From the NCBI GenBank assembly GCA_022843925.1, contig JALHMS010000010.1, positions 134,257 through 167,962 of the forward strand: DNA of 33,706 nucleotides, written 5' to 3'. The first letter of the stretch is position 1; each line of letters starts with the position of its first letter. This DNA comes from Burkholderiales bacterium (GTDB lineage Bacteria; Pseudomonadota; Gammaproteobacteria; Burkholderiales; Ga0077523). The notes under the pieces are model-generated. The model ran no database searches. It was not told where the DNA came from and saw only the letters and a program-made list of their open reading frames with translations. A program made the translations under genes and the position numbers. Below are positions 3,013 to 33,706 of the stretch, in pieces.

Positions 3013-5466
3013 ATGGCTGCATCAGTCCCGTCCCGGGCGGACGTCGTGATCATCGGTGGCGGCGTGGTGGGATGCTCCATCGCGTATCACCTCACCAAGC
3101 TCGGGATCAGGGAAGTCGTGTTGCTGGAGCGCAAGCAGCTCACCTGCGGTACCACTTGGCACGCGGCAGGACTCGTGGGACAACTGCGCAGCACGCGCAA
3201 TCTGACTGAGTTGGCGAAGTACACGGCTGAACTGCTGCACTCGCTGGAACGAGAGACCGGCCAGGCCACCGGCTTCAAGCAGAACGGCTCGATCTCCGTC
3301 GCCCTCACCCAGGACCGGATGGAGGAGCTCCGCCGGCAAGCGTCGATGGCGCGCAACTTCGGGCTCGAGGTGGACGTCATCACGCCCCAGGACATCCTCG
3401 ACAGGTACCCGTATCTCAGCCGGAAGAACATGGTCGGAGGGGTCTTCCTGAACAAGGACGGCCAGTGCAACCCCGTTGACGTCACGCAGGCGTACGCGAA
3501 GGGCGCACGAATGGGCGGCGCCAGCATCCTCGAAGGCGTCAAGGTTCTGCGCATCTTGAAGGAAGGCGGACGCGCCGTGGGCGTCGTCACGGACCAGGGC
3601 GATGTCCGCGCCTCGACCGTCGTCATCGCGGCTGGCATGTGGTCGCACGAGCTTGGTCGCCAGACCGGCGTCAACCTCCCTCTGCATGCGGCTGAGCATT
3701 TCTACGTGGTGACCGAGCCGATCAAGGGGCTGCCCCCCAACCTCCCGGTGCTTCGAGTACCGGAGGAGTACGCCTATTACAAAGAGGATGCCGGCAAGAT
3801 CCTGCTGGGGTGCTTCGAACCCAAGGCCAAGCCTTGGGGCATGGATGGCATCCGCGAGGACTTCAGTTTCGATTCGCTGCCGGAGGACATCGATCACTTC
3901 ATGCCCGTGCTCGAACTTGCCGCGGCGCGCATGCCGGTCCTCGAGAACACCGGTATCCAGACCTGGTTCAATGGGCCGGAGAGTTTCACCCCCGACGACC
4001 GCTATCTGCTGGGCGAGACCGCCGAGGTACGGGACCTCTTCGTCGCTTGCGGCTTCAACTCCATCGGCATTCAAAGCTCCGGTGGTGCCGGCAAAGTGCT
4101 GGCCGAGTGGATCCGTGACCGTCGCCCGCCGATGGATGTGGTCGACATCGAAGTCCAGCGAATGAACCCGTTCCAGGGAAATCGCCAGTACCTGCATGAC
4201 CGTACGGTGGAAACATTGGGGCTCCTCTACAAGACCCACTTCCCCTTCTACCAGTACACCACTGCCCGAGGCGCTCGACGCACACCGTTCCACGAGAGGC
4301 TGAAGGAACAGGGTGCCGTGCATGGCGAACTGGCCGGCTGGGAGCGCCCGAACTGGTTCGCGCCGGCGGGTGCGAAGCCGGAGTACGAATACAGCTACGG
4401 ACGCCAGAACTGGTTCCCGTACTCGGCTCAGGAATGCCGCATCACGCGGGACTCGGTGGCGCTCTACGATCTCAGCACGTACACCAAGTTCCACGTCGAG
4501 GGACGGGACGCCCTCCGGGTGCTCGAGCGCATCTCAGCCAACCGCATCGATGTCGCGGTGGGCAAGCTGGTCTACACACAATGGCTCAATGAACGGGGTG
4601 GGATCGAGGCCGATCTGACCATCACGCGCACCCAAGAGAACCAGTTCATGGTCGTTTCCGCCGCCGCCACGCATTTCCGCGACCTGACGTACCTGCGCCG
4701 ACATGCGGCCGAGGCGGACCACTGCTTCGTTGCGGACATGACATCGGCCACCCCGATGCTGGCGGTCATGGGGCCGAACTCGAGGCAATTGCTTCAGAAG
4801 CTGGCGCCGCACACCGACTTCTCCAACGAAGCGTTCAAGTTCGGCACATCGCAGATCGTCGAGATCGGTTACGCCCAGGTGCGGGCCAGCCGCATCACCT
4901 ACGTGGGCGAACTGGGCTGGGAGCTCTACATCCCTGCCGAGTTCGCGATGCACGTCTACGAGCGCATCGTGGAGGCTGGCCGCGAGTTTGCGCTGGGCTT
5001 CGCCGGCATGCATGCCATGAACTCCTGCCGCATGGAGAAGGGCTACCGCCACTGGGGAGACGACATATCGGTGGAGGACACGCCGCTCGAGGCGGGACTC
5101 GGCTTTGCTGTTGCCTGGAACAAGCCACACGACTTCCTCGGCAAGGAAGCGCTGTTGCGACAGAAGGAAGCGGGCGCCCCGCGCAAGCGTTTGGTCCACT
5201 TCCGCCTGCGTGACAACCAGCCGCTCCTCTACAAGGAGGAGCCCATCATCGTCAACGGCAGACCCATGGGAGCGATCACATCGGGGATGTACGGTCATCG
5301 CATCGACGGCTCCCTGGGGTTGGGCTACGTACGAGCCGAAGAGCCGATCACGGCGGCATGGATCGCAAACCAGACCTTCGAGATCGAGATCGGTTGGAAG
5401 CGCCATCCCGCACATGCCCAACTCGACGCCTACTACGACCCGACGAACGAGCGCATCCGATCGTGA
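3013..5466 (+). CDS. Dimethylglycine/sarcosine dehydrogenase-like FAD oxidoreductase fused to GcvT
   Basis: This 817-residue two-part enzyme would oxidise an N-methyl group and could pass the one-carbon unit to tetrahydrofolate. Residues about 10-385 form a DAO-type FAD domain with the dinucleotide motif IIGGGVVG (13-20) and [10 protein letters not shown] (45-54). The His at position 50 matches the histidine that carries covalent FAD in mammalian dimethylglycine dehydrogenase. Residues about 430-700 form a GcvT aminomethyltransferase domain ([19 protein letters not shown]), followed by the GcvT C-terminal barrel. Length is close to dimethylglycine dehydrogenases (about 850). An AGGGGT ribosome site precedes the ATG. 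It leads a same-strand group with a polyamine-type ABC importer, which suggests that the importer brings in its substrate or a precursor. Dimethylglycine, sarcosine or another N-methyl amine all remain possible. Confidence 0.93.
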
Positions 5467-24042: not shown

Positions 24043-25098
24043 TCAGGTCTTGAATCCTGACCGCTCGTTCCGCCGCACCCGCCACCCCAGCCCAGCCAGG
24101 CCGCCAGCCACCAGCAGCACGCTCGCCGGCTCCGGTACCGGCGCCGGGTTGACCCACGCGTGCTGGGGCAGGACTGTGCCGTCGCCCTCCACGCGCAGCA
24201 CGCTCACGCCGGGGCTCGTGGTGAGCGCGAGCCGGCCGAGGAAGTCGAAGTCGTGGGGGTTGCCCTTGGCGAACTCCGTGCTGCCATCGTCGAGCTTCTG
24301 GCCGCGCATGTCGAAAGCGGCGTACAGGTTGACGAACGCCTCGCAGTAGCCGGCCGCGGCAAAGCATTGCGAGTTGATGAAGCTGCCCCCGATGCTCACC
24401 TTGCCGTTGGCGACGCTGGACTCGTAACGGACCAAGGGCTCGGGCGACGGAAAGGCGAGCGGCGGCAGGCCGGTGGCGACGTTGCCCAGGCCCGCGTACA
24501 CGCCCAGGCCGGCAAGCCAACCGTCGCTGCCGTCGTTTTGCAGCACCTCGCCGTCGACCGTCACGTCGAGCCGGATCTCGACCGGGCCCACGTGGTCCGT
24601 GGCCCAGCGCACCTCGAAGTTCTGGAACAGTTCCGCGAAGGGATAGGCCTGCACATAGGCGACACGGCCCTGGAACGGCGGCGGTGAAGCGACGTAGCCG
24701 CTCTGCGATCTCAGGAGGAGCGTGCCGGCGACGAGATCGCCCTCCACCTGCCGCACCCCGGCTACGGGCAGGGGGTCCCCGCCGCCTGCCTGGAGCAGCG
24801 CACCCTGCGCCTGCATGTCGATGCGGACGCGTTCCAGGCCGTCGTAGACCTGGATGCTGCCGGACGGGGGATCGCCGACCTTATTGACCGTCTGGACGAC
24901 GACGCCGTCGCGGGATCCCGTGCCGGTGACGGACGACGTGGGGTCGAGATTCCAGGTGCTGTAGATACCCAGCGACACCCCGGCCTGCGCGCGGCCGGTG
25001 GCGGCGGCGGAACTGGGCGTCACGGAAAGGCTGGCGACGGCGACGAGGGCGAGTGCAAGCGGGCGCGCGGCCCCGCCGCGGGACGGGCGCAGGTCCAT
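24043..25098 (-). CDS. PEP-CTERM sorting-domain exported protein
   Basis: The 351-residue protein has an N-terminal signal peptide (LALALVAVASLSVTPSSAAA) and a C-terminal PEP-CTERM signal: PVPEPASVLLVAGGLAGLGW, then the basic tail RVRRNERSGFKT. Such proteins are processed by exosortase and released or displayed at the surface, often with exopolysaccharide. The body is rich in beta strands. It has two cysteines (about 253-260), and I recognise no catalytic motif. AGGAGA precedes the ATG. The last codons and the stop fall in a REP-like dyad (GTCAGG...CCTGAC, 24042-24062), so the end of the protein may derive from a repeat insertion. Confidence 0.88.
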   Translation of the reverse strand: MDLRPSRGGAARPLALALVAVASLSVTPSSAAATGRAQAGVSLGIYSTWNLDPTSSVTGTGSRDGVVVQTVNKVGDPPSGSIQVYDGLERVRIDMQAQGALLQAGGGDPLPVAGVRQVEGDLVAGTLLLRSQSGYVASPPPFQGRVAYVQAYPFAELFQNFEVRWATDHVGPVEIRLDVTVDGEVLQNDGSDGWLAGLGVYAGLGNVATGLPPLAFPSPEPLVRYESSVANGKVSIGGSFINSQCFAAAGYCEAFVNLYAAFDMRGQKLDDGSTEFAKGNPHDFDFLGRLALTTSPGVSVLRVEGDGTVLPQHAWVNPAPVPEPASVLLVAGGLAGLGWRVRRNERSGFKT

Positions 25099-26233: not shown

Positions 26234-26802
26234 GGTCCGGCAGCGCCCACCAGTCCTGCCTCGTAGCCTTGCCGCGAGGAAACGACCGTCCGGCTGACGG
26301 CACGATGCAGGCCGCGCCACGGGGCCAGGTCTCTTCCCGTCGCGCGTGGTTCCGCCAGTGCATTCCTCACCCTCGTATCCGCCACGACAACGGCTCCCAG
26401 CCACGTGGACGAAGTTGGGCCAATGGCAATCTCGGCGGGACACCCCGATGCGATGTAGCAATTCCGGGGCGCCAGACCTGGCCCCGTTCTTCGCGGACGC
26501 CGGTAAGCGAGCACTTCCCCCCGCCCCCGGAACCAGGCCGGCGCGATGATCGGCCGGCGTCAGGGAACCTTACAAGGCGCACCTCGGCAGGAGTCGCGCC
26601 GATCTGAATGGGTGAAATTTTCCCTGCGCATTCAATCCGGAGGATGCCGGGACCCCCGCCCGGGGTTGGTTCGTGCTACGGGAGCCTCTGCACCGCCTGT
26701 GCGATCGCGACGGAGGTCGTCCGGGCGGTCGACGCGAAGGACCAGGCCGCTGTCGGACACGGCGGTGTTGTCGACATCAATCAGAGAGTCAAAAGGAACA
26801 CC
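26234..26802. other. Gene-free stretch between two PEP-CTERM genes
   Basis: This is 569 bp with several open frames but none that resembles a protein on either strand. I found no clear dyad, sigma-54 promoter (TGGCAC-N5-TTGC) or repeat unit. The short sequence CAAGGCGCACCT occurs here (about 26573) and in similar form before the preceding gene (about 25636), which may be chance. Confidence 0.4.
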
Positions 26803-27291
26803 ATGGATATCCGAAACATCGCCGCTGCGCTGGCACTGACCGCCGCCTCCGGCGCCACCCTCGCCGTCGGCCCGGGGCCGCTCGGCACCATCGACAACCA
26901 GCCGATCGCCATCAGCAACATCGTCCCGATGGGGATCTTCCAGGACGTGTACTCGTTCACCATCACCGATCCCGGCAGCCTGTCGGGCAACGCCGTTGCG
27001 GTCAACTTCAGCCCATACAACATCCTGGGCCTGACGGTCACGCTGCAGGACTCGAGCTTTGCAGTTCTCGGCAGCGACGCCACGCCGGCCGACGGCTTCA
27101 GCTTCGTCAACCTGGCCGCCGGCACCTACGCACTGAACGTACTCGGCTTTGCCACCGGCGCTTCGGGCGGTTTCTATAGCGGCGGATTCGTCGCGACGAC
27201 GGCGCCGATCCCCGAGCCCGGGACGTACGCCTTGATGCTTGCCGGCCTGGGCATCATCGGCGCCATCGCCCGCCGTAGCCGCTCGGCTTGA
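26803..27291 (+). CDS. FxDxF-type PEP-CTERM exported protein
   Basis: The 162-residue protein has a signal peptide (MDIRNIAAALALTAASGATLA) and a short motif FQDVYSFTI near residue 47, resembling the FxDxF-type PEP-CTERM family. Beta-rich repeats follow, and the C-terminus is PIPEPGTYALMLAGLGIIGAIARRSRSA. AAAAGGAACACC precedes the ATG. The likely location is the cell surface or the extracellular matrix. Confidence 0.9.
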   Translation: MDIRNIAAALALTAASGATLAVGPGPLGTIDNQPIAISNIVPMGIFQDVYSFTITDPGSLSGNAVAVNFSPYNILGLTVTLQDSSFAVLGSDATPADGFSFVNLAAGTYALNVLGFATGASGGFYSGGFVATTAPIPEPGTYALMLAGLGIIGAIARRSRSA

Positions 27292-27458: not shown

Positions 27459-28293
27459 GGTCGGACCCACGCAACCTCCTGATCTAGCTCACGCTTCATT
27501 CCACGGATAGCTGTTTCTCACGCTTGGACGGCCATTTTCGCCGGCCATTTCATGGCGGTGAGCCGCCTCGGGCTCACACAGGACACCGGTCGTTCCTGAA
27601 ACGTCGACGTGTCGATGGCGAGCCGCAATGCCGAGGTCTGATTTCACCTTCGCAACGAAGTCCGGCGATCGCGCCGGCCCATTCAGGCGCTTGCGCGCGA
27701 CCGTCCGATTGCAGCGACTCGTCGACCCATTCGCGGTGCGCCGCCTGAAGCGCGGCCGGTTCAGCCCATCCGGGCAGTTCGCACAGCGCCTCGATGTCGA
27801 TGACGCCGTCGCGCGCGGGAGGCGCCTGGATCTGCGCATAGCCGCCATGGGCCCACTCTGCGGGATGGGAGACAACTCCCGCACGCGCCAAATTCAGATC
27901 GATGTACGCCCTGCACCGCATGAGATGACCGGCGGCCCGGACAGCCGTGGCGTGATACCGGTCTTCCTAGTACGCACCTGTCCTCCCTTTGCGTTGGTTG
28001 TACTCGGGAGCCGTCCTCCCGGCGACGAGTTGGAGGCTCTGCGCGATGACGTTCGGGGCAGTGTGTTTCACCGATCCCGGGCGGACTCGAGAAGGAACTC
28101 CCTTTGGTGGCACCGGTGGGTCAGGTGCCAGACATGACCAGGTAGGTGGTATCGGTTCGCTCGGGGCATCGTGTCGACCCGCCAGGCTCGACGGCCCGTA
28201 CTGGCAACGAAACACGTGCTCCAAGGCTTGGAACAGGCGGTCTCTGACGCCGTTGTTTCGCGCGATCAGGAGGTTGAGTGGGTCCGACCCCGG
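27459..28293 (-). mobile_element. REP-bounded element carrying a decayed Y1 transposase
   Basis: The left end (from 27459, GGTCGGACCCACGCAACC followed by TCCTGATC) and the right end (28262-28293, read on the other strand) match at 25 of 26 positions as inverted repeats. Between them lies a transposase pseudogene on the minus strand. A second repeat type, GGGTCAGGT, occurs at 27418 and 28118. The arrangement is that of a REP-associated tyrosine transposase locus. Confidence 0.7.
27489..28085 (-). pseudogene. REP-associated (Y1/IS200-like) transposase, C-terminal part, decayed
   Basis: The minus strand reads VIAQSLQLVAGRTAPEYNQR KGRTGAY, an amber stop (27969-27967, where relatives have Trp), EDRYHATAV, then RCRAYIDLNLARAGVVSHPAEWAHGGYAQIQ. 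This is the classic C-terminal half of Y1 transposases. Near 27665 the frame shifts and continues with DFVAKVKSDLGIAARHRHVDVS and EPEAAHRHEMAGENGRPS. The HUH/tyrosine catalytic half is not recognisable upstream. At least one nonsense change and one frameshift make it inactive. Confidence 0.82.
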
Positions 28294-29290: not shown

Positions 29291-29689
29291 TCAGGAAGGG
29301 TACCGCTCGAACTCGGGCAGCGCATTCATGCGACTCACCCAGCCGAGCCGCTCCGCCGTCTGGATCTGGACGGCCGGGGGCAGTGCATCGGGGTCGCCGA
29401 GCGTGGCGGCATGGACATCGACGCGCCCCGGGATCACCGCTTCGTTCCGGTAGAAGAGCCCGGCGCCGCAGTCGGAACAGAAGGATCGCATCGCCGTCCC
29501 CGACGCGTTGATCGTTCTGGGCGTGCCCGAGCGGATCGTGAGCGCGGCCTCCGGATAGATGGCCCACGCCACGAACGGCGCGCCGGCGCTGCGACGGCAG
29601 TCGGTGGAATGGCAAACGGCGGCGACGTGGGGTTCGCCCGACAGCTCGCAACGGATGGCGCCGCAGCGACCGCTTCCCGCATGGATCAT
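29291..29689 (-). CDS. GFA/CENP-V-like zinc-binding protein
   Basis: The 132-residue protein has the paired cysteine motifs of the glutathione-dependent formaldehyde-activating (GFA) fold: GRCGAIRCEL, CHSTDCRRSAGAPFVAWA and FCSDCGAGLFYRNE. These cysteines bind structural and catalytic zinc in the family. The ATG at 29689 follows GGAGG at ideal spacing. Most GFA-like proteins have no proven substrate, and a formaldehyde role should not be assumed. 29690-29904 upstream holds no gene, only one GGGTCTGACCC unit (29757-29767). Confidence 0.9.
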   Translation of the reverse strand: MIHAGSGRCGAIRCELSGEPHVAAVCHSTDCRRSAGAPFVAWAIYPEAALTIRSGTPRTINASGTAMRSFCSDCGAGLFYRNEAVIPGRVDVHAATLGDPDALPPAVQIQTAERLGWVSRMNALPEFERYPS

Positions 29690-29905
29690 GGTGTGGCCTC
29701 CGTCCCGCGATATCGATGGCGCGGAGTGTAGCGAGCGGGAGATCGGGCGTTTGGGCGGGTCTGACCCGAGGACCCAATTCTGCGATGACGGCGTCGGGGG
29801 GACTCGAAACGTCGGGAACAGACCGGACAGGGGTACATCCTCCGCTTCTCGCCTTACGGCCTCCGCGAGGTGCATGGCACGGACCGTATCGCGAGCCTCG
29901 CATCG

Positions 29906-30119
29906 AGTAAGCCACCGCGGCTTCGTGCAGGACACCGCTCGTTCCTGAAACGCCCAGGTCACGATGGCGGGCCGCGTTGCCAAGGTCCGCCTTTGCCTTC
30001 GTGACAACGTCTGGCGAGCCCATTGCGATCGCGGAGATCCAATCGGGCATCCGCGCGCGAACTTCCGATTTCAGCAACTCATCGAGCCATTCATGCTGTG
30101 CTGCCTGAAGCTCCGACAC
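29906..30119 (-). pseudogene. Fragment of the same Y1 transposase (C-terminal)
   Basis: The minus strand encodes SELQAAQHEWLDELLKSEVR, PDWISAIAMGSPDVVTKAKADLGNAARHRDL and VSGTSGVLHEAAVAYS. This aligns with the C-terminal part of the copy at 27.5 kb, but here frame is kept across the site where that copy is shifted. No upstream half is present. Instead it joins an IS1182-like fragment. Confidence 0.72.
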
Positions 30120-30187: not shown

Positions 30188-30229
30188 TGACCCTTTAGGC
30201 TTGCCCCTTGACCCTTTAGGCTTGCCCCT
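30188..30229. repeat. Exact tandem duplication of a 21-bp unit
   Basis: The unit begins TGACCCTTTAGGC and ends TTGCCCCT, and it occurs twice head-to-tail (30188-30208 and 30209-30229). It lies exactly where the IS1182-like transposase fragment is cut off and overlaps an ACCTGACCC repeat (30185-30193). In the minus frame it gives RGKPKGS twice. Confidence 0.9.
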
Positions 30230-30520
30230 GAGGGCGATGAAGACGACGTGATCTCGACACGCGGCTTCGATGCGCCGTGAGCTGATGATGCCGCGGCTAT
30301 AGGCGAACAGGACGATCTTCAGCAGCACGCCGGGGTGGTACGCGGGGGCGCCGGTCAGGTCGTTCTTGAGCGCCGCGGAGAACGGTGAGAGGTCGAGCTC
30401 GTCATCGATGAGCACGTGCAGCGCATGCTCGAAGGTGCCGGGAAGGATTTGCTTGGCGAAGTCCACGGGGATGAACTTGGGCTGCATGTCGACGTCCCGA
30501 TAGCGCGCCATCTCGACCAC
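30230..30520 (-). pseudogene. IS1182-type (DUF772) transposase, 5' fragment only
   Basis: The minus-strand translation MARYRDVDMQPKFIPVDFAK QILPGTFEHALHVLID and LDLSPFSAALKNDLTGAPAYHPGVLLKIVLFAYSRGI is the typical N-terminus of IS1182/ISNCY-like transposases. It ends near HVVFIALRG. The DDE catalytic domain is missing. An ATG at 30511 (MARYRD) is the likely original start. The fragment lies between the repeat region and the distal end of the attC array. Confidence 0.85.
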
Positions 30521-30597
30521 CCATGTAGCAACGAGGTTGCGCAGATGATGCCGAGCGCTATCCCTCGGGGCAAGGGGCGGGAGGGGGTTTTTCTACA

Positions 30598-30694
30598 GCC
30601 TCAACGTGAAGCTAACCGGCCGCCGGAGCGCGAAGCGCGGAGGGAACCCAACAGCGCTGCTGTTGGGCGGTCCGCGTTGAGCGCCGAGTTAGGC
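30598..30694 (-). other. Integron attC site 1
   Basis: Read on the minus strand it begins with R'' GCCTAAC (30694-30688) and L'' GCTCAACGCGGACCGCC. After a central hairpin (CCCAACAGC/GCTGTTGGG) come L' GGCGGCCGGTTAGC and an R'-like GTTGAGGC (30605-30598). The L arms pair with unpaired bases on one strand only, the hallmark of attC. The stop codon TAA of the upstream cassette gene lies inside R''. Confidence 0.78.
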
Positions 30695-31018
30695 CGCACC
30701 GACCGAGGGAAACCACGTGTCGAGCTTGGAGTCACCGTACGTTCGCAGCACTTGAGAGATTACGACTTGGTAGCCGTTGAGCCAAGAAGACTGCTTGGAC
30801 TTGGCCTGTAGATGCGCGGGGTGCCGCATGAGTTGCTCCAGTGCCTCCATTGACTCCCAGTAGTAGACGTTGGAGACCAGCCCCGTCTTCGGGTTCTCCC
30901 AAGATTCTTCGCCCAGGTAACCGGGTGTCGTCTTTGCGATCTGCGCAATCGTTTCGTCGAGCCGGTAGAACTCATCGTCCCACTCGCCCTTGGCAAAGAT
31001 GAAAGTTGCTGAGTACAC
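30689..31018 (-). CDS. Antibiotic-biosynthesis-monooxygenase-like protein (gene cassette)
   Basis: The 109-residue protein starts VYSATFIFAKGEWDDEFYRL. It contains DETIAQIAKTTPGYLGEESW, NVYYWESMEALEQLMRHPAHLQAKSK and LNGYQVVISQVLRTYG, a ferredoxin-like ABM-fold protein of a type often found in integron cassettes. The GTG at 31018 follows AAAGGACC. The frame upstream is not family-like. Its stop codon is embedded in attC site 1, the usual cassette arrangement (gene, then attC). Function is unknown, possibly a small oxygenase or heme/hydrophobe-binding protein. Confidence 0.85.
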   Translation of the reverse strand: MYSATFIFAKGEWDDEFYRLDETIAQIAKTTPGYLGEESWENPKTGLVSNVYYWESMEALEQLMRHPAHLQAKSKQSSWLNGYQVVISQVLRTYGDSKLDTWFPSVGAA

Positions 31019-31124
31019 GGCGGTCCTTTTCGTCCTGTGGTTCACACACGCATGAGGTTTACCTGTTCTCTCGTGCATCGTCTCCGAAGCGCAAGGGTTT
31101 GTACGACAGCAACGCGCATGCGCG

Positions 31125-31235
31125 GCCGAACGTTCGAGGTAACAGGCGCGGAGCGGCATGGCTGGCATGGGCAAGAATGAAATGGTGCCCATGCGAGCTA
31201 TGCCGTGGAGCGTCCGGTTCACCGCGGGGTTCGGC
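31125..31235 (-). other. Integron attC site 2
   Basis: On the minus strand it starts with GCCGAAC (31235-31229) and ends with GTTCGGC (31131-31125). The inner arms GGTGAACCGGACGC...CGGCAT and GGTAACAGGCGC...CGGCAT (the latter read on the plus strand) pair with extra unpaired bases. Site length is 111 bp. The brnA stop codon lies 1 bp before it. The site belongs to the brnTA cassette. Confidence 0.7.
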
Positions 31236-31236
31236 G

Positions 31237-31518
31237 TCATTTCGGCGCAGAGCGCGCCAATTCTTCGGCCATGCGGGTTTGCCAACCAGGCCCAGTTGCC
31301 CGCCAACGCTGAATGACATCTTCTGTCAGTCGAATCGAGATGAGTCGCTTCGGATTGGGTGAACGGGGGCGGCCTCCTTTGTTCACCTCGCCTCGAGCGA
31401 GCATTTCATCTGTGAGTTCGGGAAGCTCCTCGTACTCGTGCGGCTGAATCACATGGTCAGCCACGCGAGACAGATCAGACCCCAAGGAGGGGTGCGATGC
31501 GCGCTTGCTCACGGTCAT
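31237..31518 (-). CDS. brnA: BrnA antitoxin (gene cassette)
   Basis: The 93-residue protein ends PNPKRLISIRLTEDVIQRWR ATGPGWQTRMAEELA, the ribbon-helix-helix-type C-terminus of BrnA. ELPELTDEMLARGEVNKGGRPRS precedes it. It follows and overlaps the BrnT gene by 44 bp, as usual (toxin first). It should bind BrnT and repress the shared promoter. Confidence 0.92.
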   Translation of the reverse strand: MTVSKRASHPSLGSDLSRVADHVIQPHEYEELPELTDEMLARGEVNKGGRPRSPNPKRLISIRLTEDVIQRWRATGPGWQTRMAEELARSAPK

Positions 31519-31750
31519 TGGCTTTCCTCATGCTGAAAATGTGACGATCCGCGCCACGCGGTGTGTACCCGACGACGACCATGCGATCGCCGACGTAGCC
31601 AAAACAGATCATGCGGCTCTCACCATAGTCCCGACGCTGATCTTCCACCTCGAAGTGCGGCCCCTGGAAAACGAGGCGCGCATCTTCAAAATCAAGGCCG
31701 CGAGCGGCAAGAGTGTGTTCCCGCTTAGCGATGTCGTATGTCAGATTCAC
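31475..31750 (-). CDS. brnT: BrnT toxin (gene cassette)
   Basis: This 91-residue RelE-fold ribonuclease toxin has the family pattern ARGLDFEDARLVFQGPHFEV, DQRRDYGESRMICFGYVGDR MVVVGYTPRG and ISMRKAN-type IFSMRKANDREQ. All conserved regions seem intact. It is the first gene of the cassette, 61 bp after the preceding attC site, a typical position for a cassette carrying its own promoter, which toxin-antitoxin cassettes usually do. Confidence 0.93.
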   Translation of the reverse strand: MNLTYDIAKREHTLAARGLDFEDARLVFQGPHFEVEDQRRDYGESRMICFGYVGDRMVVVGYTPRGADRHIFSMRKANDREQARIAPLLGV

Positions 31751-31811
31751 ATGGTTACTGTATCTACATTAACCGGGGAGGACAAGCGAAGAGGGAGGTC
31801 ATCTCCATGAC

Positions 31812-31895
31812 GCCGAACGCTTAGTTGAGCAGCCGCCGTGCACGGCGGCGAAATGGGAAGAAGCGCTCATACGGCGGGGTGCTCGAACGTTGAGT
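31812..31895 (-). other. Integron attC site 3
   Basis: On the minus strand it reads R'' ACTCAAC (31895-31889), L'' TTCGAGCACCCCGCCGT, a central hairpin, L' pairing (TTGAGCAGCCGCCGT on the plus strand) and R' GTTCGGC (31818-31812). Site length is 84 bp. R' here is the perfect complement of R'' of attC site 2, as expected for the two ends of one cassette (brnTA). Confidence 0.78.
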
Positions 31896-33444
31896 TGGAC
31901 GAGTGCCGCTTCGCCAGCGGCGCGTGCTTATCGGAAATTCTATTCGCCCCGTGCGCGCCCCGATAGCGCAATCCGCCCTCGACATCGGTAAGTGGCGCGA
32001 GGTCAGACAGCGCAAAGCGGCAGTAGGGGCGTGAGTTGCGTGATGAGGCGAGGTGGACGGTCCACCGGGAAGACGCGGGCTTCGTCTTCTCGGGTCCACG
32101 GGGCGCGATCGCACCTGCGCATCGGCGCATCGAAGGGCTCATGGGGCGACTCCCGTATCGGCGCTCGGAGGCGAGGCGCCGCAGCGGATGCGCGGTCCGC
32201 GCACGAAGGCACAGCCGCACGTCGGGCAGTGTGTGTGCGTACGCGGTGCGCCGAGGCGCTGAAGGTAGTGGGACCAGTGCTCCGGTGGGGTGGTGACGGG
32301 CGATGGTGCGGAGGCGGACGCAGCCGCGGGGGCGATCACGGCGAGTGCTCTGGCGCGGCGCGCCGTGGCGCGTGGGGCGTACAGGCCGTAGGCGCGCAGC
32401 TGATGCTGGCCGGTGGGCGCCACGTGACTGAGGACGCGCTGCAGGAAGGCCGCCGGTGCGAGCGTGAGGAATGCCTGGTCCCCGGTGGCGTGGTCGAGAT
32501 GCCGGAATCGGACCTGGGTGGCGTCGGCGTGGACGATCTGGGAATTGTTCATGGGGCCGCCGCGCACGTAGCGCGCGAGGTAGGCCGCGACACCGTGACC
32601 ATGGGCATAGCGCGTACGCACATGCACGTTCCACTTCAGTCGATGCAGGCGGGTGAGCGTGCGTCGCCACAGGGCGAGGTCCCAGTCGCGCGGCAGGCGC
32701 AGGGCACCGGCGTCGAGTTGGGCGCACACGTCGGCGAGCAGGCGTCCGCGGAAGGCGGCCATGAGGGCGCGCGCGGGGAGGAAGTGGCTGCGTCGCGGGG
32801 CATGCCAGTGGCCGGCGTCGGTGAGTCCACCATCGGTGATGAGCACGTGCACGTGAGGATGGATGCCCAGGGCGCGGCCCCAGCTGTGGAGCGCCATGAG
32901 GATGCCGGGGGTGGCCCCCAGATGCCGTGGATCGGCGAGGAAGTGCTGCAAGGTGCGGTGGGTCACGGCGAAGAGCAGCTGGCCCATGGCGCGGCGATTG
33001 GCGCACCACAGGGCATTGAGTTCGTGCGGGATGGTGAAGATGAGGTGGTGATGCGCCACCGGCAGGAGTCGGGTCTCGAGGCGCGCGAGCCAATGGGCGC
33101 TGGCGAGGCGCTGGCACTGCGGGCAACTGCGATGGCGGCACGAGTGGTACCAGCGACGTTGCGTGTGACCGGCAGGACAGATCTGGAGATGGCCACCGAG
33201 GGCCGGCGTGCGGCATCGGCCGATCTGCCGCGCGGCATGGCGCTGTTCGGCACTCAGCGCGTAGCGCTGAGTACAGGTGGCTTGGTGTTGCCGGACGATC
33301 GCCCCCAGATTCGCCTGCACCGTTCGGCCTCCGCTGGCCATCGTTGCCACGACATCCTGACTTCAGGATCACTTCGCCGCACAGCACCGCGCCTCTCACG
33401 AGCGACGCGGCTTCACACCTCCCGCGAAGCGGGACTCGTTCAAC
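31894..33444 (-). mobile_element. IS91-family element between two attC sites
   Basis: The two ends are inverted copies: GCGAAGCGGGACTCGTTCAAC at the right (33424-33444) matches the left end read on the other strand at 19 of 21 positions. Each includes a small perfect hairpin (GCCGCT/AGCGGC at 31905-31921; CCCGC/GCGGG at 33421-33433). The only gene inside is an IS91-type transposase. GTTC/GAAC tetranucleotides, the known IS91 target type, are present at both borders. The borders coincide with attC core sequences. 31896-32138 (behind the transposase) has no gene. Confidence 0.6.
32139..33350 (-). CDS. IS91-family transposase (Y2 HUH)
   Basis: The 403-residue protein has an N-terminal zinc-binding region (CPAGHTQRRWYHSCRHRSCPQCQ, residues 58-80), the HUH motif HPHVHVLITDGG (164-175) and the double-tyrosine motif YLARY (Tyr257 and Tyr261). 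It is full length for the family and shows no frame damage, so it may be active. It would mobilise the element by rolling-circle transposition. Orientation is the same as the flanking attC sites. Confidence 0.95.
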   Translation of the reverse strand: MATMASGGRTVQANLGAIVRQHQATCTQRYALSAEQRHAARQIGRCRTPALGGHLQICPAGHTQRRWYHSCRHRSCPQCQRLASAHWLARLETRLLPVAHHHLIFTIPHELNALWCANRRAMGQLLFAVTHRTLQHFLADPRHLGATPGILMALHSWGRALGIHPHVHVLITDGGLTDAGHWHAPRRSHFLPARALMAAFRGRLLADVCAQLDAGALRLPRDWDLALWRRTLTRLHRLKWNVHVRTRYAHGHGVAAYLARYVRGGPMNNSQIVHADATQVRFRHLDHATGDQAFLTLAPAAFLQRVLSHVAPTGQHQLRAYGLYAPRATARRARALAVIAPAAASASAPSPVTTPPEHWSHYLQRLGAPRTHTHCPTCGCAFVRGPRIRCGASPPSADTGVAP

Positions 33445-33533
33445 GTTCAAGGTGAGGGGCTGCCGGAGCCCGAAGGGCGGAGGGAACCGAGATGCGCAGC
33501 TTCTCGGCAGTCCCCTCGACCGCAGGGTTAGCC
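33438..33533 (-). other. Integron attC site 4
   Basis: On the minus strand it reads R'' GGCTAAC (33533-33527), L'' GGTCGAGGGGACTGCCG, a central hairpin, L' pairing with GGTGAGGGGCTGCCG (plus strand) and R' GTTGAAC (33444-33438). L'' and L' are complementary except for one extra C and one extra A on one side, exactly the extrahelical-base pattern of attC. Site length is 96 bp. 33351-33437 between the IS91 gene and this site is non-coding. Confidence 0.82.
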
Positions 33534-33594
33534 GCCATGTGTTCCCTCCAGTGCGGACAGGGTCTGGCGGAGCCGCTTAACAGCGCGCCTAGTA
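33528..33594 (-). pseudogene. 3' remnant of a cassette gene ending inside attC site 4
   Basis: The minus strand encodes RAVKRLRQTLSALEGTHGG and then TAA (33530-33528). The stop lies inside R'' of attC site 4, the same arrangement as the monooxygenase cassette. The upstream part is missing. Beyond about 33595 the sequence belongs to an IS630-like transposase region on the other strand, so the gene was probably cut by that insertion. Confidence 0.5.
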
Positions 33595-33610
33595 CATTGA
33601 ACCAATGAAT

Positions 33611-33632
33611 ATGCACCTAGTCGAAGGTGCAT
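33611..33632. repeat. Perfect inverted repeat upstream of IS630-like transposase
   Basis: ATGCACCT and AGGTGCAT (8 bp each, 6-bp spacer) lie right at the transposase start. They could be a terminal or subterminal IS repeat or an operator. Confidence 0.5.
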
Positions 33633-33706
33633 GAACAAAATGAACCTGAGTGCTTCCGAGCGGCAGGAACTGATGGCGATGCAACGCAGCCGCACATTGG
33701 CCGTGG
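33631..33706 (+). CDS. Transposase N-terminus (IS630-like), cut by the window edge
   Basis: MNKMNLSASERQELMAMQRS RTLAV resembles the first helix region of IS630-type transposases (LxxxERxELxxLxRxRTxA). An AAGGTGC site lies before the ATG at 33631, and a second ATG is three codons on. Only 25 codons are visible, so the family call is tentative. Confidence 0.5.
   Translation, partial: MNKMNLSASERQELMAMQRSRTLAV

Follow-up and report, generated by a model that had tools for sequence, protein, structure and literature searches.

A four-attC cassette array at a contig end in a Burkholderiales bacterium: probable distal part of an integron served in trans, with IS1182-family and IS91-like transposase genes at its attC sites

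The stretch of DNA analysed here, which we call the window, comprises 33,706 nucleotides of a Burkholderiales bacterium (G000, a genome of 5.57 Mb in 64 contigs), from position 134257 to position 167962 of contig C10 (JALHMS010000010.1), and its right edge coincides with the end of that contig (167962 bases). Near this edge lies an integron cassette array, in which four attC sites—at least two being expected of such an array—share the minus orientation and separate small genes. The integron integrase, IntI, captures and excises cassettes of this kind by way of the folded single-stranded attC. Read in the cassette direction, from right to left, a truncated gene with attC4 is followed by an IS91-like transposase gene with attC3, a brnT–brnA pair with attC2 and a monooxygenase-like gene with attC1, which site abuts the end of an IS1182-family insertion sequence (IS) at 30602. 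The truncated gene is represented by its 3' end (33527..33588, minus strand), with the stop codon in the R'' box of attC4, and is interrupted by another IS at a TA. The transposase gene (32139..33350, minus; 403 aa) is of the IS91 family (Y2/HUH; NF033538, 347 bits against a cut-off of 125; PF04986). The brnT toxin gene (31475..31750, minus; PF04365, 71.4 bits, cut-off 34.5) and the brnA antitoxin gene (31237..31518, minus; PF14384, 55.6 bits, cut-off 26.1), the stop codon of the latter directly preceding R'', form a type II toxin–antitoxin pair carried on a cassette. The last open reading frame (30689..31306, minus), whose start is uncertain, resembles antibiotic-biosynthesis monooxygenases (ABM; PF13826, E 3e-4; PF03992, E 8e-4; both under the curated cut-offs), and its stop codon falls within R'' of attC1.

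The attC sites were identified with R1, a calibrated covariance model built from an alignment (A2) of 22 attC sites of the same genus, none of which came from the window; the rows were taken from arrays beside intI, attI or intI stubs, together with five sites at the ends of related IS copies (L013:10074, L017:11528, L069:1447, L081:1437 and L097:3374), and two reversed sites that had figured in an earlier alignment, A1, were omitted (L015:59-122 and L092:13704-13767). The structure of A2 is backed by covariation (0.389 versus 0.136 in shuffled alignments), with 83.8% of the cells paired as against 26.6–43.3% when the structure was slid. From an unfiltered search of the entire window, for which 27 matches were listed, R1 picked exactly four attC sites, all on the minus strand: attC1 at 30603..30694 (match 30694-30599, 60.4 bits, E 6.5e-12), attC2, that of the brnTA cassette, at 31125..31235 (46.3 bits, E 1e-8, with a strong fold), attC3, the transposase cassette's own site, at 31812..31900 (33.1 bits, E 1e-5), and attC4 at 33438..33533 (66.0 bits, E 3.4e-13). 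The best remaining match had an E-value of 0.35, and the opposite-strand overlaps of the four sites scored below 10 bits. All four display the anatomy of attC, namely R'' and R' boxes, L'' and L' arms and one-sided unpaired L'' bases. A first heuristic attC finder was dropped in favour of the covariance model, having returned many false matches, and Rfam scans gave no attC match, their weak miRNA matches resembling chance hairpins; Rfam is not known to hold an attC family.

An earlier note on this DNA, made from the letters alone, had proposed four minus-oriented attC sites, and a model trained on outside sites thus recovers both their number and their strand. The four places it had given stand as well, with two adjustments: attC3 reaches 31900 instead of 31895, and bases 30598-30602, which had been counted into attC1 (30598-30694), belong to the IS end. 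That note was also right about two stop codons inside R''—TAA at 30691-30689 in the ABM-like gene and TAA at 33530-33528 in the truncated right-hand gene—and about the brnTA cassette, in which the leading R' (GTTCGGC) is perfectly complementary to the cassette's own R'' (GCCGAAC); the one-sided unpaired bases it had seen in three of the four sites are present in all of them, one in each L'' arm, according to the R1 alignments as judged by eye.

To the right, the window closes with one end of an IS630-like element (33589..33706, plus strand), inside which the contig breaks; the label is a presumptive one, drawn from the TA target and from a helix-turn-helix protein in the copy of the sister genome G003. 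Over its last 118 bases the window shows 100% identity with the ends of two other contigs, of which C35 stops within the element just where C10 does and C31 (length 51889) one base later, while the sequence preceding the TA differs among all three contigs, which places the repeat boundary at about 33588/33589. The right stop of the array is therefore a repeat-induced assembly break in a multicopy IS. None of the ten matches to the integrase model TIGR02249 in the genome lies on C10, and this contig ends 173 bp to the right of attC4; because it does so inside the multicopy element, the description of the array as integrase-less in the earlier note is not established, and an attI to the right of the window, where that note had expected it, is plausible.

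The sole complete intI found in the genome is located on C37 (333 aa; TIGR02249, 475.8 bits), and three N-terminal stubs of the gene are found on C46, C14 and C22. The attI region of C37 is copied at C14 (95% identity) and at C46 (94%), in both instances beside an intI stub, so that near-identical attI copies and the same stub coexist with one intact intI in this genome. The family assigned by GTDB consists here of one genus with 12 genomes, among which intI was found above the cut-off in 11 and matched across all 315 model positions in eight; five genomes (G000, G001, G003, G007 and G008) have N-terminal matches in addition to their main copy. Synteny links two loci of G003 with G000: C45, which carries the intact intI, corresponds to C37, and C39, a stub locus, to C14 (94.5% over 5.4 kb), nearly one and the same truncation junction being common to the stubs of C14, C46 and G003:C39. 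From the synteny together with the shared junction, an attI platform devoid of a full integrase probably predates the split of the two species. Furthermore, the first cassettes of the five attI platforms (C14, G003:C39, C46, C37 and G003:C45) carry unrelated genes, and yet all of them join attI at CTAGTT. As orthologous stub platforms hold different first cassettes, the simplest reading suggests that cassettes were inserted by an integrase acting in trans, in which circumstance the product of the C37 gene would probably serve several attI platforms and arrays. In Xanthomonas, a functional IntI can mobilise clusters of attC sites lacking an integrase (CALINs) in trans, according to the part text of PMC12444791.

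Three further observations were made at loci of the genus. The C14 array (L016, 8600-15130) has five R1 attC sites beside its attI and intI stub, and also contains a C-terminal transposase fragment of the IS1182 family, a gene for a PIN-domain toxin and, by eye, a likely antitoxin. A long array in another genome of the genus (L097; G002:C34:800001-820000) has 11 R1 matches, an intI matched over model positions 1-228 only, and an IS1182 end at the attC at 3374-3451. Finally, near-identical 64-nt attC sites, reversed relative to the array, lie in two species (L015 on C46, 59-122; L092 on G007:C35, 13704-13767) and adjoin a shared element ending ...CTCGTCCAAC at the contig end, possibly a mobile element with its own attC.

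Two other accounts of the array's origin have to be weighed here. The first, that the array is a true CALIN—a relic attC cluster possessing neither attI nor intI and stranded through rearrangement—agrees with the lack of an intI match on C10, with the IS debris at both edges of the array, and with the frequency of CALINs beside intI-bearing integrons in Shewanella and Xanthomonas (part texts of PMC9229058 and PMC12444791); since, however, the array runs into an assembly break and its right side is unseen, we consider this account possible at odds well short of even. The second would make the window array the distal part of the C46 platform itself, which has the predicted geometry (minus attC sites at 1120-1212 and 441-530, attI at 1601-1774 and the stub at 1808-2023 on the plus strand) and whose array continues off the left contig end. 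The ends of C10 and C46, nevertheless, do not overlap, and the left end of C46 is a different element with a reverse-oriented attC (59-122), so that at least two elements would be needed in the gap between the contigs; this connection, too, we hold to be less likely than not. The resemblance to the CALINs and sedentary integrons of Xanthomonas (PMC12444791) and Shewanella (PMC9229058) extends, as far as the part texts of those papers go, to attC clusters with small cassettes away from intI, to truncated intI genes and to an ancestral genus-wide platform, and, taken by itself, the array is an ordinary example of this known kind; the differences are that near-identical attI copies and the same intI stub here coexist with an intact intI, and that two species have kept one stub platform in common.

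At the left edge of the array, where the earlier note had not recognised it, lies the remnant of an IS1182-family element (30218..30602, minus), of which the first 98 or so transposase codons persist at 30218-30508, the rest having been lost. Its terminal repeat (30588-30602, minus strand) reads GAGGCTGTAGAAAAA, and the element ends ...TTTTTCTACAGCCTC flush against the GTT of attC1; the R'' box of this site is GCCTAAC (30694-30688), whereas R' is cut down to GTT (30605-30603) because the IS end abuts. The remnant has a DUF772 match and aligns with a full-length copy from the genus, P0001 (query 2-98, 60% identity), which copy—the one full-length G002 copy tested—is assigned to IS1182 by NF033551 (303.3 bits, cut-off 270) and has the domains DDE_Tnp_1_6, DDE_Tnp_1 and DUF772. 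A protein search of the 12 genomes gave 13 matches, eight of which extend to the transposase N-terminus; an R1 attC lies directly upstream of seven of these eight, and the eighth (G002:C15) has a possible remnant by eye only. Two of those seven attC sites are in the R1 training set, and among the six copies outside it five match. Three more copies, preserved as an IS end or a C-terminal part only (C37, C22 and G002:C34 near 803 kb), all abut an attC, their attC sites being in the R1 training set and having been found with queries that contained the IS end and some attC. For the genus as a whole, then, the IS1182 end abuts an attC in 10 of 11 copies, five of these attC sites having trained R1; GTT follows three of the five right ends read.

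The association reaches beyond the genus. In a class-wide sample, 16 of 369 genomes held a relative of the element, with R1 matches at or near the left end at loci L114, L117, L120, L121, L123 (E 0.08), L125 and L130; of the 14 flanks that could be read, 11 were attC-like by eye, one was unclear, and two, from among the four copies in genome G300, were not attC-like. When the exact 18-base IS end was searched in named genomes, at least 117 stretches were found, of which 80 loci with 81 sites were analysed, and at 35 of the 81 an R1 match (E up to 0.5), among the loci listed, ended at most two bases from the IS junction, as against about 0.04 expected from uniform placement (94 R1 matches in 532 kb). 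These 35 junctions include Marinobacter, Nitrotoga, Thiothrix, Acidithiobacillus, Methyloversatilis, Denitromonas, Zoogloea and one Desulfuromonadales assembly, so named although the genomes compared are mostly drafts and, for several taxa that are metagenome bins, the name may be mistaken; the lineage is present in many Pseudomonadota and in at least some Desulfuromonadales assemblies. The hairpin covaries over 30 of the 35 junction sites (0.410 versus 0.111), a descriptive figure, since R1 had selected the rows. A P0001-like transposase lies downstream at 21 of the 81 sites, eight of them with an R1 junction. Nine right ends sought in the named bacteria without requiring GTT were, in nine of nine instances, followed by GTTA. 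From 36 transposase-less sites with at least 700 bases downstream, 24 were inspected, and 15 of these have a right end within 82–482 bases, hence the designation of miniatures; ten are at an R1 attC. A structural scoring of the IS junctions (score of at least 7 at 39 of 79, versus 7.3% of 3241 CGTT controls) was set aside because its separation was weaker than that of the covariance model, and a second model, R2, made from 30 IS-junction attC sites, was left unused for searching since IS sequence (GAGG) makes up the four columns at its end.

The IS1182 element is, accordingly, commonly located at the crossover triplet of attC. We infer that the transposase itself directs this targeting, and think it likely, on the strength of the comparison, that the lineage and its transposase-less miniatures are specialised on attC and insert at the G^TT of the folded site; at attC1, the element would have inserted exactly at the GTT core of the R' box, and in general copies of the lineage have the attC hairpin to their left, while most of the right ends read are followed by sequence that begins with GTT. 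It is improbable, by our estimate, that the copies instead reach attC through IntI, with an excised IS circle whose ends abut (CAGCCTCGTTGAGGCTG) recombining at G^TT as non-classical sites do: the junction does coincide exactly with the triplet at which IntI crosses over, and all nine right ends read in the named bacteria do precede a GTT, but the G300 copies at non-attC ACGTT sites would leave IntI with no attC partner there, and the miniature copies behave likewise.

That attC is a target of mobile elements is already known from the IS1111-attC group and the group IIC-attC introns. In the case of the former, it is one end of the site that is targeted (Tetu and Holmes 2008; Post and Hall 2009, cited in PMC12444791 and PMC11187229, part texts), and the IS1111 and IS110 families to which it belongs have a DEDD transposase (PMC11187229, part text). 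The IS1182 lineage would resemble this group in being aimed at attC; P0001, however, is of the DDE type and not DEDD, which sets it apart from IS1111-attC, and whereas the latter has RNA-guided target choice, the IS1182 lineage has GAGGCTGTAGAAAAA terminal repeats and miniatures. The group IIC-attC introns, named in the part text of PMC9229058, are likewise mobile parasites of attC, but are retroelements and not DDE transposons. ISAjo2 and the IS1202 family, which target pdif (PMC10132070, part text), are another instance of an IS family specialised on the site of a tyrosine recombinase, although the site is there pdif/dif with XerC instead of attC with IntI, and the IS family is a different one. 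We found no description of IS1182 elements at attC in the literature searched, which consisted of titles and the starts of abstracts and covered few subscription papers; this lineage, like the IS91-like one described next, would appear to have been little noticed.

With respect to the second transposase, IS91-family elements have oriIS and terIS ends and insert at a tetranucleotide. The window protein has intact HPHVH and YLARY motifs and, like the family, combines a Y2_Tnp domain carrying HUH and YxxxY with a zinc-binding N-terminal domain, the HUH and YxxxY motifs being invariant across six aligned members (alignment A3). Its gene lies between attC4 and its own attC3 in the manner of a gene cassette, which begins at the G^TT of the preceding attC, and has a leading R' (GTTGAAC) and an own R'' (GTCCAAC) that match at six of seven positions. 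The 369 genomes of the class sample yielded five relatives from other genera (40–46% identity), and immediately downstream of each of them R1 placed an attC of like orientation (weakest E 0.011). A plasmid search gave 3652 records, of which 40 were listed; two copies were taken first, and five more later as controls. Among the first two, the copy on Thiolapillus pTBH10 has an R1 attC on each side, and that on an IncN plasmid of a Phytobacter of human source lies between aadA2 and qacEdelta1-sul1, which is the layout of a class 1 integron (judged by gene layout alone); its upstream attC is an R1 match, the downstream one being recognised by eye only.

In a tree of 26 proteins, the eight cassette-borne members, seven of which had been labelled before the Thiolapillus locus was scanned, are split off by a 100/100 branch from the other 18 rows, these being a phylum-wide sample of 22 loci minus three near-copies and one fragment. 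R1 found no match at any of the 22 phylum-wide loci, nor at any of the five control copies (Sulfitobacter, Sinorhizobium, Paraburkholderia and two Rhizobium), several of which differ in organisation, their annotation placing a gene for a tyrosine recombinase immediately upstream; in a quick tree that included the controls, the eight were again separate with full support. An R1 attC on at least one side thus characterises eight of eight clade members versus none of 23 outside, with downstream sites in seven of the eight (weakest E 0.011) and upstream sites in six (one of them partial, E 0.12); R1 could miss attC sites of other classes, yet eight of the 18 outside rows come from the same class or order. 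We conclude that the IS91-like gene is carried as a cassette and falls in a supported clade of HUH transposases borne on cassettes; a reading of the IS91 element of the earlier note as an interruption of the array is not supported.

An ordinary IS91 insertion lying between attC sites by chance would agree with the Y2 transposase and with the small hairpins within the two ends, but it would explain neither the attC flanks of all eight members as against none of the 23 relatives, nor the match of the R' and R'' boxes at six of seven positions as in a cassette, nor the member between aadA2 and qacEdelta1 on a plasmid, and we consider it quite improbable. In the members compared, small hairpins are visible by eye inside the ends of some, no target tetranucleotide stands out, and the boundaries coincide with attC boxes. 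Since the catalytic residues are kept over such distances, selection on activity can be argued, and we infer that the enzyme may act on the cassette that carries it, or else on hairpins of attC; that it uses the adjacent attC hairpin as its own end, moving by rolling circle independently of IntI, is conceivable though doubtful. ISShvi3, an IS91-like element beside an attC in Shewanella sp. Choline-02u (PMC9229058, part text), offers a parallel, but is in that text a single case, as opposed to the present clade with its eight attC-flanked members.

The notion of the four sites as copies of a dispersed hairpin repeat unconnected with integrons, for which one might cite the 74–81% sequence likeness of some window sites to one another or to genus sites elsewhere, is largely refuted and of negligible probability, for covariation retains the R and L arms together with the C and A that stay unpaired on the side of L'', and the sites border small genes of the same strand and form, within the genus, arrays beside intI and attI.

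Left of the array, the window contains a gene of the GFA family (formaldehyde-activating enzyme-like; 29291-30007, minus), beside which R1 found no attC, and two proteins with PEP-CTERM sorting motifs (26608-27291, plus; 24046-25098, minus). The segment at 27489-27921 is presumably, as read by eye and with no Pfam match, the remnant of a REP-associated (RAYT) transposase; GGGTCCGACCC-type repeats occur near it, and they also mark where the intI stubs of C46 and C14 break off.

Taking these results together, we propose that the array in the window is the distal portion of an integron array of sedentary type, truncated by the contig end, and that it would be served by IntI in trans and would double as a niche for transposons; to this reading we assign a probability of about 0.72. 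Several points weigh against it. Plain DNA folding, which the earlier note had suggested as a check, strongly supports attC2 alone (z of -7.0 and -5.2 on the two strands), the values being weak for attC1 (-1.9 and -2.0), attC3 (-0.6 and -1.2) and attC4 (-1.0 and -1.1); attC3 is, moreover, the weakest R1 site, and as its minimum-free-energy fold is not attC-like, it depends on R1. That model derives from one genus and yields rough E-values, and with five of its 22 rows at IS ends its final columns slightly favour IS junctions. The contig end conceals any attI or intI belonging to the window array, and homologous recombination exchanging cassettes among platforms could take the place of an integrase acting in trans. 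As to the IS1182 lineage, 46 of the 81 named sites have no R1 match at the junction, two of the four G300 copies are at non-attC sites, and in the genus both G002 copies have GTC after the right end. The joint statement that two unrelated transposase lineages are both specialised on attC we regard, as a whole, as rather unlikely.

Integrons are among the main natural means by which small genes are shuffled. If IS1182-family elements and their miniatures choose attC by its folded shape, an extra class of parasite would have to be added to integron arrays, one that could disrupt or fix cassettes and help to explain why arrays fragment as this one has. The cassette-borne HUH transposase, present too in the integron of a resistance plasmid, raises the question of a second route of cassette movement, and the genome, with its multiple platforms, constitutes a natural test of one IntI serving several attI sites.

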